The translations under genes and the position numbers were made by a program. A stretch of DNA of 48,901 nt from Rikenella microfusus (GTDB taxonomy: Bacteria; Bacteroidota; Bacteroidia; Bacteroidales; DYQK01). The notes beneath the pieces were generated by a model, which did not search any database, was not told the origin of the DNA, and saw only the letters and a list, made by a program, of their open reading frames with translations. The DNA lies in contig DYQK01000005.1 of NCBI GenBank assembly GCA_020719385.1, positions 10,249 to 59,149 on the forward strand, in the 5' to 3' direction. The number at the start of each line of letters is the position of its first letter. Position 1 is the stretch's first letter. Shown one piece after another: positions 1 to 11,014 of this stretch.

Positions 1-36
1 ATTGTTTTTTATTCACAAAATCGAACATTCAACAAC
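1..36 (-). CRISPR. Candidate type VI-B CRISPR direct repeat (single copy at window edge)
   Basis: Read on the minus strand, this 36-nt stretch begins GTTGTT and ends AACAAT, so its ends can pair. Its middle reads TTCGATTTTGTGAA, a short stem around a T-rich loop. Known Cas13b direct repeats are 36 nt, usually start GTTG, end CAAC and carry a central TTTTG or ATTTG loop, so length, ends and loop position all fit. It lies about 77 bases beyond the cas13b stop, on the same strand, which is where VI-B arrays usually sit. Only one copy is visible because the window starts here, so periodicity cannot be shown. The flanking bases 37-66 are clearly richer in G than the surroundings and could be leader or spacer-like sequence, but no second repeat follows at 67-102. 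Confidence 0.5.
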
Positions 37-70
37 TGTGTGAGAATGGTGTCAGGGATTGGTATTTTTA

Positions 71-106
71 TTTTTCGTCTGTCAAGTTTTTTTGACAGAC
101 GAAAAA
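71..106. repeat. Perfect 15-bp inverted repeat beyond cas13b
   Basis: The arms TTTTTCGTCTGTCAA (71-85) and TTGACAGACGAAAAA (92-106) match perfectly across a 6-nt loop, just past the cas13b stop. It could end the cas13b transcript. However, on either strand the stem is preceded by T and followed by A, the reverse of an ordinary intrinsic terminator with a trailing U-run. Its role, as terminator, RNA-stabilising hairpin or array boundary, is open. Confidence 0.75.
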
Positions 107-113
107 AATGATA

Positions 114-3100
114 TTAAAGTTTAATTTTAGACAATTCAGAATTGTATCTCATAAACAATTCTGTCGCAATTCTTCGCAAATAAACCGCAACGCTGAGATT
201 CGTAATATTTTCGGAGAAATATTGTGCCTCAGGATATTCGTTGTGCGAGAGATTATTTCTCAAGGACTCAATTTTTGCTCGTTCTTTTGCAAAATTCGGA
301 AAATATCGGTAAAAAACATTCAAAATAGTGCTGAAATTGGTAAAATATTGTCCTTTTTGATTCAACTCGCGTTCTTTTTTCACCTCTTCGGCAAATTTTT
401 CTAAAACTAATTTTTCAAAACGATGAATCAAAGAGAAAATATCGAAACGCACATCTTGATAATTTTCTAACTCGGTTTTTAAATCGGCAAGCGAAATATT
501 TTTCACACTCACCCATTTAAACAAATTTTCCAAGCGGCTATCTTTTGTATAACGCACAAAATCGCCATAATTTCGTACTTTCAATGTTGTCTCAATGATT
601 TTTCCAAAAATTTTCATACTGCACGGCACTTGAACATTCAAAATGCCATTCGTATTTGCGTTTATTTCCGCTAATTTGAAATTTTCGCCCAAAATTTTCA
701 CTTTCAAATCGGCTTGTTTTTGGTGATAAGTAAAAATTTCTTTCACCATCAAAAACAACAACATATCTTGCACTTTGTTAAAACGAATTATTTTCTCGTT
801 TTGCAAAAATTTGTTAAATTTCCCTAACGCAGACTCGCGGTAAAGTTTTGAAATTTCGACATTTCGCGAATCTAAGGGTTTTTGAGGCAATTTATAAATT
901 TGCTGCGACCAATTTTTGCAATTCGAAGATAATTCTGCAACCGAGAAATAATTTTCCAACAATTTATTCCCGCTTCTCTTGCCGAGTAACAAATTTAAAA
1001 TTTTATAACTTCGCTTGAAATTATAAAATTCCTGCGACTTGTCTTTTTCAACTTCTGCGAAATAATTTTGAATCAAAAAAACGGAATTACATCTGCCTTG
1101 AGCAAATTTTTTCATCTTGTCGTTTCCATTTTCAGAAAACCATTTTTTCAAACCCTCGTTAAACATTCCCCGCGGCAGTGAAATCGGATTTTCAGAATAT
1201 GTTTTTGCCAAATTTCTGTAATATTCCGTATCTCTCACATTCCATTTTTTTCGTTTGGGATGCAAAAAATATTCAGAAACATTCTTCCCCATTACAATTT
1301 TTTTCAAACACTCCTCGAAATATTCCTTGCGTTTTATCAAATAAGCGATGAAAAAATCAACAATAGTTAAATGATTTTCAGGATTCAATTTTTCCAAAAA
1401 CGGATGTTTATTTTTCGAAAAAGTTAACGCACAATTGAGAAAAAGATTTTTCAACAAATGTTTATGCTGCGAGTACGAAGTCAAATATGATTGCAAAACT
1501 TGATAATTCAACGAAGTAATCTTGTCCTTGCCCGCACCGTCAAGAGAAGGCTGCAAATTTAACATATCTTTTGCGAGAAACTTCGCAAGAGAACCCGATT
1601 TTATTACAACAAATTTCTTTTTCCCAATCTTGTTGCCCTTGTCCTTTAACTTGTCTCGTTTCACTTTAATTTTTTCAATTAACCGCTGACAACGTTCAAC
1701 TTCGTTGCGAATTTTATTTCCTGCAAATTTCTTAAATTTTTCAGAAATATTGACTTTTTTATCCAGCAGATAATCTTGCATTTCAACAGGAATATCAGAA
1801 ATATCGATTTGATATTGCGAGTTCAATGTATTTTTAACATTTTCCTCCGAATCGGGCAACATTTCTCCCGTATGAATATCGGAAAAAAGTTTGCGAAAAT
1901 TTTTGATATGAGAGTCAATAATTTTTTCTGCTGCCGCAAAACCATCAACAGTATTTTTTTGCCCCAAAATTAAACCGTAAAAAACCAACGCAGGAAGTTC
2001 ATACGCACTGAGAAAACAATCGGGAACATCGCAATGCGTTTTCCCATCATCTAATTCGGGCAAATGAATATTATCGCCGACTTTTTTCAACGCAATTTGA
2101 TTTGCGTTTAAATGATATCTCGGAAAAGCATTTGTGATGTATTTTTGTGCAAAATTCTTCGGTGGAGTTGGCAATTTTTCCTTTGCCTCGTCCCAAATTA
2201 AATTATCCCATTGCTCTTTTTTCGCAGAATTTACCTCATTTAAACGAGCAAACGTTTTCAAACCAACACTGAGATTGCGTTTTCTTGTCTCGCCGTCAAT
2301 AGTTTTTTTGTCATAAAATTTATAAAAATATCGTCCCAATTTTATGTGAAAACGAAATTGCGGGAAAAGTTTCAATTCGTCAATAAAATTGAGTGCGAAG
2401 AAAGCGAAACGATTATTCATTCGGATGAAATTACTCTCGTTTTGGTCGCTTTCTTTGATATTCGAGATAAAACTAATTTTATCTTTTTTCTGCAAAAGTT
2501 CAAAAACAGGTTTCGGAAAACGCTTCAATTCGTTGAGAATATCTAATCCCAAAGCAAGTGTTGAGTCGGTACTTTCTACGCGGTGCTGCGGAATTCGAAT
2601 GGAATAAATCGCAAAGAAATCGCGAAAAATGTCGTTAAAATGTTGCTTAACGTGGTTTATTAGGTCTATGGAGTCTTTTTTCTCTAAAAATAAACTCACA
2701 AAAAAGACAAAACCTTTTTCAGTTAACTTTTTTTCTCGTTCAAAATGATACAGAAAATTCGGATTTTCCTTTGGTCTTCTCGTAATTCTATCTTTCCCCT
2801 CCAAACGTCTAAAACATGACAATTCATTTTCCTCCCATTTAAAACGTTCTTTGCCCATTCGCAGCGAAGTGTCGAAAATAAAATCGAGATATTTGAAAAA
2901 ATTATCTCTCTCCTCATCGTTTCGAAAACGCATTACTGCGTAATCATAATGCGTATAAAAATTTCTCCAATCATTTAAAAGTTGAAAAAACGATTTACAA
3001 AGATTATATAACAACTTTGTACCTTCTTTTTCTGAAAAGGGTTTATTATTTTTCAATGCAATATTGCGTTCTGTCTCAATAATCGGAGCAAAAAATGGGA

Positions 3101-3323
3101 AATGTTTAAGAATTAGTCGTTCAGACTTTTGTGAAAGAGATTGGTCGTTGCCGTTTAACGCCTCAATAATTGGCATTTCGCATAAATTTTCCTCATCACA
3201 GGGAACTTCTCCTAATAAATTTGCTATATGAGAGAGAGTCAAATATGCATTTTGCCTCGCAAGATTGAGATAAATGGCAAAAAACCATTTTTCATCGTGA
3301 TTTTTCCAATTATAATAAACCAT
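114..3323 (-). CDS. cas13b: Type VI-B CRISPR RNA-guided RNase Cas13b
   Basis: A 1069-aa protein with the Cas13b layout: a HEPN RNase motif near each end, R120-NFYT-H125 and R1022-NNLS-H1027. Around residues 310-330 the segment FALNFIDELKLFPQFRFHI closely resembles the equivalent stretch of known Cas13b proteins. Cas13b processes its own crRNA and, after pairing with target RNA, cleaves RNA through the two joined HEPN domains. Most family members are about 1100-1200 aa, so this is a slightly short but apparently complete version. The start at 3323 fits a promoter 30 nt upstream. No csx27 or csx28 accessory and no cas1 or cas2 is nearby. The upstream neighbour is an ordinary exporter gene. The protein is very rich in Lys, Phe and Asn, like the rest of this AT-rich DNA. 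Family assignment is confident; activity is inferred from intact motifs. Confidence 0.95.
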   Translation of the reverse strand: MVYYNWKNHDEKWFFAIYLNLARQNAYLTLSHIANLLGEVPCDEENLCEMPIIEALNGNDQSLSQKSERLILKHFPFFAPIIETERNIALKNNKPFSEKEGTKLLYNLCKSFFQLLNDWRNFYTHYDYAVMRFRNDEERDNFFKYLDFIFDTSLRMGKERFKWEENELSCFRRLEGKDRITRRPKENPNFLYHFEREKKLTEKGFVFFVSLFLEKKDSIDLINHVKQHFNDIFRDFFAIYSIRIPQHRVESTDSTLALGLDILNELKRFPKPVFELLQKKDKISFISNIKESDQNESNFIRMNNRFAFFALNFIDELKLFPQFRFHIKLGRYFYKFYDKKTIDGETRKRNLSVGLKTFARLNEVNSAKKEQWDNLIWDEAKEKLPTPPKNFAQKYITNAFPRYHLNANQIALKKVGDNIHLPELDDGKTHCDVPDCFLSAYELPALVFYGLILGQKNTVDGFAAAEKIIDSHIKNFRKLFSDIHTGEMLPDSEENVKNTLNSQYQIDISDIPVEMQDYLLDKKVNISEKFKKFAGNKIRNEVERCQRLIEKIKVKRDKLKDKGNKIGKKKFVVIKSGSLAKFLAKDMLNLQPSLDGAGKDKITSLNYQVLQSYLTSYSQHKHLLKNLFLNCALTFSKNKHPFLEKLNPENHLTIVDFFIAYLIKRKEYFEECLKKIVMGKNVSEYFLHPKRKKWNVRDTEYYRNLAKTYSENPISLPRGMFNEGLKKWFSENGNDKMKKFAQGRCNSVFLIQNYFAEVEKDKSQEFYNFKRSYKILNLLLGKRSGNKLLENYFSVAELSSNCKNWSQQIYKLPQKPLDSRNVEISKLYRESALGKFNKFLQNEKIIRFNKVQDMLLFLMVKEIFTYHQKQADLKVKILGENFKLAEINANTNGILNVQVPCSMKIFGKIIETTLKVRNYGDFVRYTKDSRLENLFKWVSVKNISLADLKTELENYQDVRFDIFSLIHRFEKLVLEKFAEEVKKERELNQKGQYFTNFSTILNVFYRYFPNFAKERAKIESLRNNLSHNEYPEAQYFSENITNLSVAVYLRRIATELFMRYNSELSKIKL

Positions 3324-3353
3324 AAATGTCTTTTTTCAAAAATTTTTAAAACA

Positions 3354-3383
3354 CAAAAGTAAACATTTTTCTTCAAAAACAAA
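3354..3383 (-). promoter_or_regulatory. cas13b promoter
   Basis: On the minus strand TTTG (3380-3383) is followed after 18 nt by TACTTTTG (3354-3361), a near-perfect Bacteroidota promoter. It lies 30 nt before the cas13b start, in the gap after the exporter gene. Cas13b can therefore be transcribed independently of the atpG-phoD-exporter run. Confidence 0.65.
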
Positions 3384-9895: not shown

Positions 9896-11014
9896 ATGAA
9901 ATATTACATTGTTGCAGGCGAGGCTTCTGGCGATTTGCACGCTTCGAATCTGATGAAAGAATTGAAAAAAATTGATAAAAACGCAATTTTTCGAGGTTTC
10001 GGTGGAAATTTGATGCAAGAAGAAGGTATAATTCTCACTAAACATTACAAAGACCTCGCTTTTATGGGGCTTTTTGAAGTGTTGCGAAATATTCGTACCA
10101 TTTTAAAAAATTTCTCGATTTGCAAAAGAGATATTCTTGATTTTCAACCCGATGCAGTCATATTAGTCGATTATCCTGGGTTTAATTTGCGAATGGCAAA
10201 ATTTGCAAAGTTAAACAATTTTAACGTTTTTTATTATATTTCGCCGAAAATTTGGGTATGGAAATCTTCAAGGGCAAAAATTATTAAACAATTTGTTGAC
10301 AAAATGTTCGTTATTTTTCCTTTCGAAAAAGATTTTTATCGCAAATTTGATTACGAAGTTGAGTATGTCGGTAATCCTTTGTGGGATGCTTTGCAGGAAG
10401 AAATTTCAGAAAATGTTGATTTTCAAGGTTTTACAAAAGAATTTTCTCTCGAAAACAAACCAATTATCGCACTTTTACCCGGAAGTCGCAGACAGGAAAT
10501 AAAATTGTTGTTGCCTGAGATGATAAAAGTTGTCTCGCAATACAATGATTTTCAATTTGTTATCGCTGCATCACAGTCTATTGAGAGAAGTTTTTACGAG
10601 AAATTTATAGAAACCTCGAAGGTCTATCTCGTTTATAATCAAACATATAAGTTGTTAAAGCACGCAACGGCGGCATTGGTAACTTCAGGCACAGCAACGT
10701 TGGAAACTGCACTTTTCGAAGTGCCGCAGGCAGTTTGTTACAAAATGAATGCTGCCACTTTTCGCATTGGAAAATTGATTATTGACGTGAAATTCTTTTC
10801 TTTGCCAAATATTATTATGAATCAGGAAATTGTGAAGGAATTTTTGCAATTTGATTTGGCTGAAAAAATGAAAAATGAATTGGACAAAATTTTGTTTGAT
10901 GTTCATTATCGCAAAGAAATGTTAAAAAATTATAAAATTCTCAAAGAAAAGTTAGGGGAAAGTGGTGCTTCGCAAAAAACAGCTGAAAAAATTTATTCTA
11001 AAATTGTTTATTAA
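9896..11014 (+). CDS. lpxB: Lipid-A-disaccharide synthase
   Basis: A 372-aa protein starting MKYYIVAGEASGDLHAS, the family's hallmark N-terminus. It contains DAVILVDYPGFNLRMAK, YYISPKIWVWK, LLPGSRRQEIKLLLP and a TSGTATLETALF sugar-nucleotide loop. LpxB condenses UDP-2,3-diacylglucosamine with lipid X to give the lipid A disaccharide, at the inner membrane's cytosolic face. The ATG at 9896 is chosen over an upstream in-frame TTG because it starts the conserved sequence and the upstream codon lies in the promoter box. The gene stands 17 bp ahead of an S51 peptidase-like gene on the same strand. Confidence 0.95.
   Translation: MKYYIVAGEASGDLHASNLMKELKKIDKNAIFRGFGGNLMQEEGIILTKHYKDLAFMGLFEVLRNIRTILKNFSICKRDILDFQPDAVILVDYPGFNLRMAKFAKLNNFNVFYYISPKIWVWKSSRAKIIKQFVDKMFVIFPFEKDFYRKFDYEVEYVGNPLWDALQEEISENVDFQGFTKEFSLENKPIIALLPGSRRQEIKLLLPEMIKVVSQYNDFQFVIAASQSIERSFYEKFIETSKVYLVYNQTYKLLKHATAALVTSGTATLETALFEVPQAVCYKMNAATFRIGKLIIDVKFFSLPNIIMNQEIVKEFLQFDLAEKMKNELDKILFDVHYRKEMLKNYKILKEKLGESGASQKTAEKIYSKIVY

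Follow-up and report, generated by a model that had tools for sequence, protein, structure and literature searches.

The question raised by the locus

CRISPR arrays are recognised through near-identical repeats, and it is established for Cas13b that the protein binds the hairpin of the repeat, processes the pre-crRNA into 5'-spacer-repeat-3' guides and uses two HEPN sites to cut RNA upon matching a target RNA. The locus described here raises the question of what a type VI-B system is when its effector gene is intact, its repeats differ widely from one another and its genome has no detectable cas1. It lies at the left edge of the window, the whole stretch of 48,901 nt that was analysed (G000:C63:10249-59149); G000 is a draft assembly of 288 contigs, 98% complete. 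What is new at this locus is the combination of a diverged, covarying array with a genome in which cas1 is not detected, and a limited literature search found no published report of a VI-B array with divergent, structure-keeping repeats.

The Cas13b effector and its flanking elements

The cas13b gene occupies window 114..3323 on the minus strand and encodes 1069 aa. Its assignment is supported by family models, solved structures and predicted fold: the NCBIfam model VI_Cas13b (NF038190) matches the ORF with 644 bits (E 4.2e-193, profile positions 2-1039 of 1066; cut-off 150), two Cas13b models of PADLOC match it, and the solved structures of PspCas13b and PbuCas13b match the protein by sequence (best E 1e-75, PDB sequence search). 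An AlphaFold2 model (mean pLDDT 82.5) has the same two proteins as its top Foldseek matches in the PDB, PspCas13b at E 4e-47 and PbuCas13b at E 9e-43. A preliminary description of the sequence had claimed an intact Cas13b with both R-x4-H motifs, and both points are borne out. The frame of 1069 codons is free of stops and frameshifts, and the HEPN residues are complete: RNFYTH at aa 120-125 (window 2949..2966, minus strand), where R120 and H125 are nearly invariant over 23 homologues, and RNNLSH at aa 1022-1027 (window 243..260, minus strand), where R1022 and H1027 are invariant over 23 Cas13b proteins. Its remark that the protein is slightly short carries little weight; relatives measure about 1009-1272 aa, so 1069 aa is ordinary. 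An effector above the family cut-off, two R-x4-H HEPN motifs and a nearby array make this a type VI-B locus.

Upstream of the cas13b ATG lies a promoter-like stretch (TTTTTGAAG .. TACTTTTG; window 3354..3379, minus strand) which we take to be a putative promoter of the Bacteroidetes type; about 20 stretches similar to TTTTTG .. TACTTTTG occur across the genome, four of which were aligned. At the other end of the gene, a perfect 15-bp inverted repeat with T runs (window 71..106; RNA fold -19.6 kcal/mol) is a likely two-way terminator at the boundary between cas13b and the array. The segment from this hairpin to the first repeat (window 37..70, minus strand) is the presumed leader, judged by its position. 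A leader-repeat hairpin like that of P. gingivalis (PMC13187072) was considered and rejected: the predicted pairing of the leader with the first repeat is no stronger than with shuffled leaders.

An array of divergent repeats

The cas13b-proximal end of the array is formed by repeat R8 (window 1..36 = C63:10249-10284, minus strand; GTTGTTGAATGTTCGATTTTGTGAATAAAAAACAAT in cas13b orientation), which is recognised by its copies and by a covariance model (E 2e-8). It is the single repeat visible in the window because a 100-N scaffold gap (C63:10149-10248) lies inside the array, directly left of base 1, with type C repeats on each side. The preliminary description had proposed this 36-nt element as a repeat, and leftward extension confirms it with seven further copies at C63:9730-10148 (starts 9730, 9791, 9853, 9919, 9987, 10050 and 10114). 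The starts are 61-68 nt apart, with repeats of 35-37 nt and spacers of 25-32 nt. R8 agrees with the copy at 10114 at 35/35 positions and with a portion of the 9919 copy at 34/34.

The array holds at least eight repeats of five sequence types, the gap hiding the total number. In cas13b orientation these are type A (GCTGTTTAATGTTTAATTTTGTAAACGAGAGACAGC, two copies), type C ((A/G)TTGTTGAATGTTCGATTTTGTGAATAAAAAACAA(C/T), three copies, one of them window 1-36) and types B (GCTGTTTAATATTGCGATTTTGTGCAACAGAGACAGT), D (GTTTTTTAATGTTCGATTTTGCGATACAAAGATAAC) and E (ACTGTAAAATGTTCAATTTTGTGAACGAGATGCGGC), each with one copy in the assembled part. Identity between the five types is 56-78% (mean 69%), and the mean over all eight copies is 74%; the three type C copies are 94-100% identical. 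At other Cas13b loci, from the order and from named genomes, mean array identity is mostly 83-100%, with single degenerate end repeats, in a comparison set that includes some misregistered or non-CRISPR repeat chains and in which a few loci yielded no array. Copies of type C flank types D and E; simple independent drift is therefore insufficient to explain the pattern, and recombination or gene conversion is needed too. No CRISPR family was matched in an Rfam search.

Structure of the repeat RNA

Folding, which the preliminary description had suggested as a check, gives a dumbbell with an ATTTTG loop common to the array copies. All eight repeats form the outer stem, inner hairpin and ATTTTG loop, or nearly so, type D only partly. 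Stem pairs are kept at 87%, against 65% +/- 4% expected under random substitution (0/5000), in a test that keeps each repeat's count of stem changes, randomises their places and treats the repeats as independent, which is not fully true. When the array is aligned with the kindred repeats on contig C126 (see below), 88% of cells are paired, nine are double-change cells, and 5/11 pairs have changed on both sides. The covariation score is 0.445 versus 0.31 in shuffles (0/500) and also exceeds that of every slid version, the array and C126 repeats again being treated as more independent than they are. The repeat types thus hold their outer stem, inner hairpin and loop largely through paired changes. 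Since pair retention lies far above random, free decay does not account for the divergence of the repeats, whose RNA shape has been maintained by selection.

A second cas13b copy

Contig C126 carries a second cas13b, an open frame of 504 aa (C126:21099-22613 = L010:7100-8614, minus strand) that has the N-terminal HEPN and is missing the C-terminal half. Its product shares 60% identity with the window protein over residues 3-487 of the latter. Kindred repeats lie 5' of this truncated gene at the contig end (C126:22681-22841), and the repeat covariance model has strong matches in G000 only there and at the C63 array. Between the two cas13b copies dN/dS is 0.18 and dS 1.6.

Accessory and adaptation genes

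Neither csx27 nor csx28 was found by a PADLOC scan of the ORFs in the 10 kb to the left and of two right-hand neighbours, or by home-made HMMs for both, which covered every ORF in the window and in C63:1-13800; the Csx28 model has no match in the whole genome. The statement of the preliminary description that neither gene adjoins cas13b therefore holds, to 10 kb on the left and for Csx28 genome-wide, and its view of a self-contained Cas13b gains support, the locus being cas13b plus array. The csx28 neighbour that marks VI-B2 and the csx27 neighbour that marks VI-B1 are both missing. A 173-aa membrane-anchored protein (C63:5400-5921) has a Csx28-like architecture, yet it belongs to DUF7935 (Pfam E 3e-60) and was set aside. 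In the relatives L060, L069 and L085, csx28 lies 3-12 nt behind cas13b; it is absent at the window locus and at L062. Most of the nearest Cas13b relatives carry it, so the window locus has probably lost it. A VI-B locus without an accessory gene is a known arrangement.

A different neighbour is common to five Cas13b loci without identified csx27 or csx28: a gene of 438-634 aa, located 5' of cas13b, whose product has two membrane helices at its C-terminus (L063:443-1981(-), L064:3994-5556(-), L067:6086-7990(+), L079:4767-6329(-) and L088:4933-6249(-)). It is weakly CorA-like, with PADLOC CorA matches at E 1e-6 to 4e-5 in three of the four scanned (L063, L064 and L088; none in L067), and is possibly a VI-B membrane accessory resembling type III CorA effectors.

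Cas1, by whose presence in locus or genome an adaptive CRISPR-Cas system is recognised, was not found in G000 (98% complete) by a PF01867 search that found one in 7/10 genomes. Median array identity is 93% without cas1 versus 98% with it (p 0.005, the two divergent arrays excluded), a comparison uncorrected for relatedness and including several incomplete genomes. Loss of cas1 was rejected as a sufficient cause of array divergence: many genomes without cas1 keep uniform arrays.

Relatives and comparable systems

In a tree of 38 Cas13b proteins, a placement the preliminary description had proposed, the window protein is a long basal branch of a well supported 18-member clade, near L060 and L062. 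The nearest relatives, L060 (Saccharicrinis MAG), L069 (Bacteroidia PG1894_40) and L085 (Odoribacteraceae MAG), are VI-B2-like and carry csx28. They share with the window locus a Cas13b with both HEPN sites, the fold, a 36-nt repeat with a U-rich loop and an array that adjoins cas13b in cas13b orientation. The window locus differs in that it lacks csx28, its genome has no cas1 and its repeats are 56-78% identical, whereas theirs are nearly uniform.

A Draconibacterium orientale MAG locus (L038 = L062) has the only other clearly divergent array among the Cas13b loci examined. Like the window locus, it has cas13b without csx28 in a genome without cas1 (PF01867); its four repeats have 73% mean identity, and their outer stem has changed on both sides. 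It differs in that its Cas13b is only 35% identical to the window protein, its inner hairpin is invariant while the outer stem varies, and its spacing is a regular 65-66 nt. Its sister L060 has csx28 and cas1 and an array that is 94% uniform; with the L062 and window arrays divergent and that of L060 uniform, either the divergence evolved independently in the two or the uniform state of L060 is the older one.

Two known systems offer partial parallels. The VI-B locus of F. columnare likewise consists of cas13b and array only, without csx27, csx28 or adaptation genes; its adaptation needs Cas1 in trans, supplied to the VI-B array by the II-C system (PMC8092290), whereas none was found in G000. 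CreTA guide RNAs of type I have degenerate repeats around fixed guides (PMC9458426, PMC8501985), as the window array does, and these repeats were shown experimentally to recombine less (PMC9458426). CreTA differs in that it works with type I Cascade, has a single spacer and a toxin gene, and lacks a conserved repeat hairpin (PMC9458426, PMC8501985); the window array has Cas13b, several spacers and a kept hairpin, and ORF lists identified no toxin.

The searches also brought up more distant loci. L046 (G164), L047 (G185) and L048 (G081) have frames of about 1100 codons that match the Cas13b model, below cut-off, in their C-terminal HEPN region alone; in L046 the frame stands alongside 19 identical 36-nt repeats. 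These frames are perhaps a distant Cas13. L045/L057 (G173:C45) has a compact 728-aa Cas13b-like frame, below the family cut-off, beside identical VI-B-type repeats, and is perhaps a small-effector system (VI-B3 or Cas13bt-like). Cas13b was not found in the viral contigs searched.

Spacers and possible targets

The whole array gave no believable match in phage records (best E 0.4), and the cores of five of the six spacers (all but spacer 4) gave no exact match in IMG/VR. Spacer 2 (ATTTTCGCAAATTATTTCCCGAATAA, C63:9827-9852) matches the host genome itself: one gene on C165 matches it at 22/22 nt, and there are 20/20 matches on C11 and on C1. For this spacer, simulated genomes of equal composition reach at most 18 nt in 40 trials. 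The matched genes belong to a host family of about 35 copies, with some 30 other places in G000 (L124-L153); other members match spacer 2 at the same site at 19-22 of 26 positions, GAATA end included. The family combines a coiled coil with a D..ExK-like C-terminal region, and searches of Pfam, NCBIfam and PDB gave it no name. Provided that transcription of the array runs in the cas13b direction, the spacer 2 crRNA would be antisense to the mRNAs of the family. The VI-B system of F. columnare also acquires host-genome spacers (PMC8092290). The host match may be an accident, mobile-gene defence or regulation.

Interpretation

The reading we favour, and consider reasonably probable, is a bare VI-B system that does not adapt: its cas13b is intact, its short array has fixed guides and repeats under selection for RNA structure, and its genome has no detectable cas1 and no csx28. 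An array without Cas1 would no longer copy its leader-proximal repeat; uncopied, the repeats would each drift separately over a long time, the one constraint being that Cas13b must still bind the hairpin and cut it. The pre-crRNA, bound at that hairpin and cut by Cas13b, would still yield loaded crRNAs of the form 5'-spacer-repeat-3', and loaded Cas13b would cut RNAs matching the fixed guide set through its two HEPN sites. By analogy with CreTA (PMC9458426), divergent repeats would also recombine less and so preserve the guides. The dN/dS of 0.18 between the cas13b copies and the intact Cas13b count for this non-adapting but active reading, as do the divergent repeats with their kept stem pairs, the failure to find Cas1, the similar state of L038 and the less uniform arrays of genomes without cas1. 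Against it count the spacer lengths of 25-32 nt, a variation that also fits decay, the placing of the type C copies, the uniform arrays of many genomes without cas1, and the draft state of the assembly with its gap within the array.

The strongest competitor, which we consider unlikely though worth keeping in view, is a dying VI-B system: the array would be decaying and cas13b merely not yet hit, with the 504-aa second copy, its C-terminal HEPN lost, showing the course. The absence of cas1 and csx28, the uneven spacers and the lack of any spacer match in phage records or, for five spacer cores, in IMG/VR agree with it; a repeat structure held far above random substitution, together with an uninterrupted frame and complete HEPN residues, does not.

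A further extension of the fixed-guide idea strikes us as rather improbable: the guides would be individually evolving RNA genes, Cas13b would be in host use, guide 2 would silence the roughly 35-copy, possibly selfish family, and divergence would prevent recombinational guide loss. An ordinary VI-B system that still adapts, its Cas1 missed or on an unassembled element and its mixed repeats recombined from several arrays, is quite improbable. Something does spread or renew the near-identical type C copies, a kindred array exists on C126, and the draft genome has 288 contigs, but Cas1 was not found at 98% completeness where the same search found it in 7/10 genomes, and types B, D and E are single-copy in the assembled part. 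A chimera joining reads of several arrays or strains is very improbable: the draft state and the identical repeats flanking the gap would allow it, but about 420 nt are contiguous (C63:9730-10148) at a steady 61-68 nt spacing, housekeeping genes stand on both sides, and L038 is independently in the same state.

For the family, repeats that differ by up to 44% with their fold kept mean that such arrays escape detectors demanding near-identical repeats. The co-varying pairs within one array mark the repeat positions that are important to Cas13b as structure only. The locus of the window, if it no longer adapts, is a natural case for asking what CRISPR systems do once they are unable to learn.
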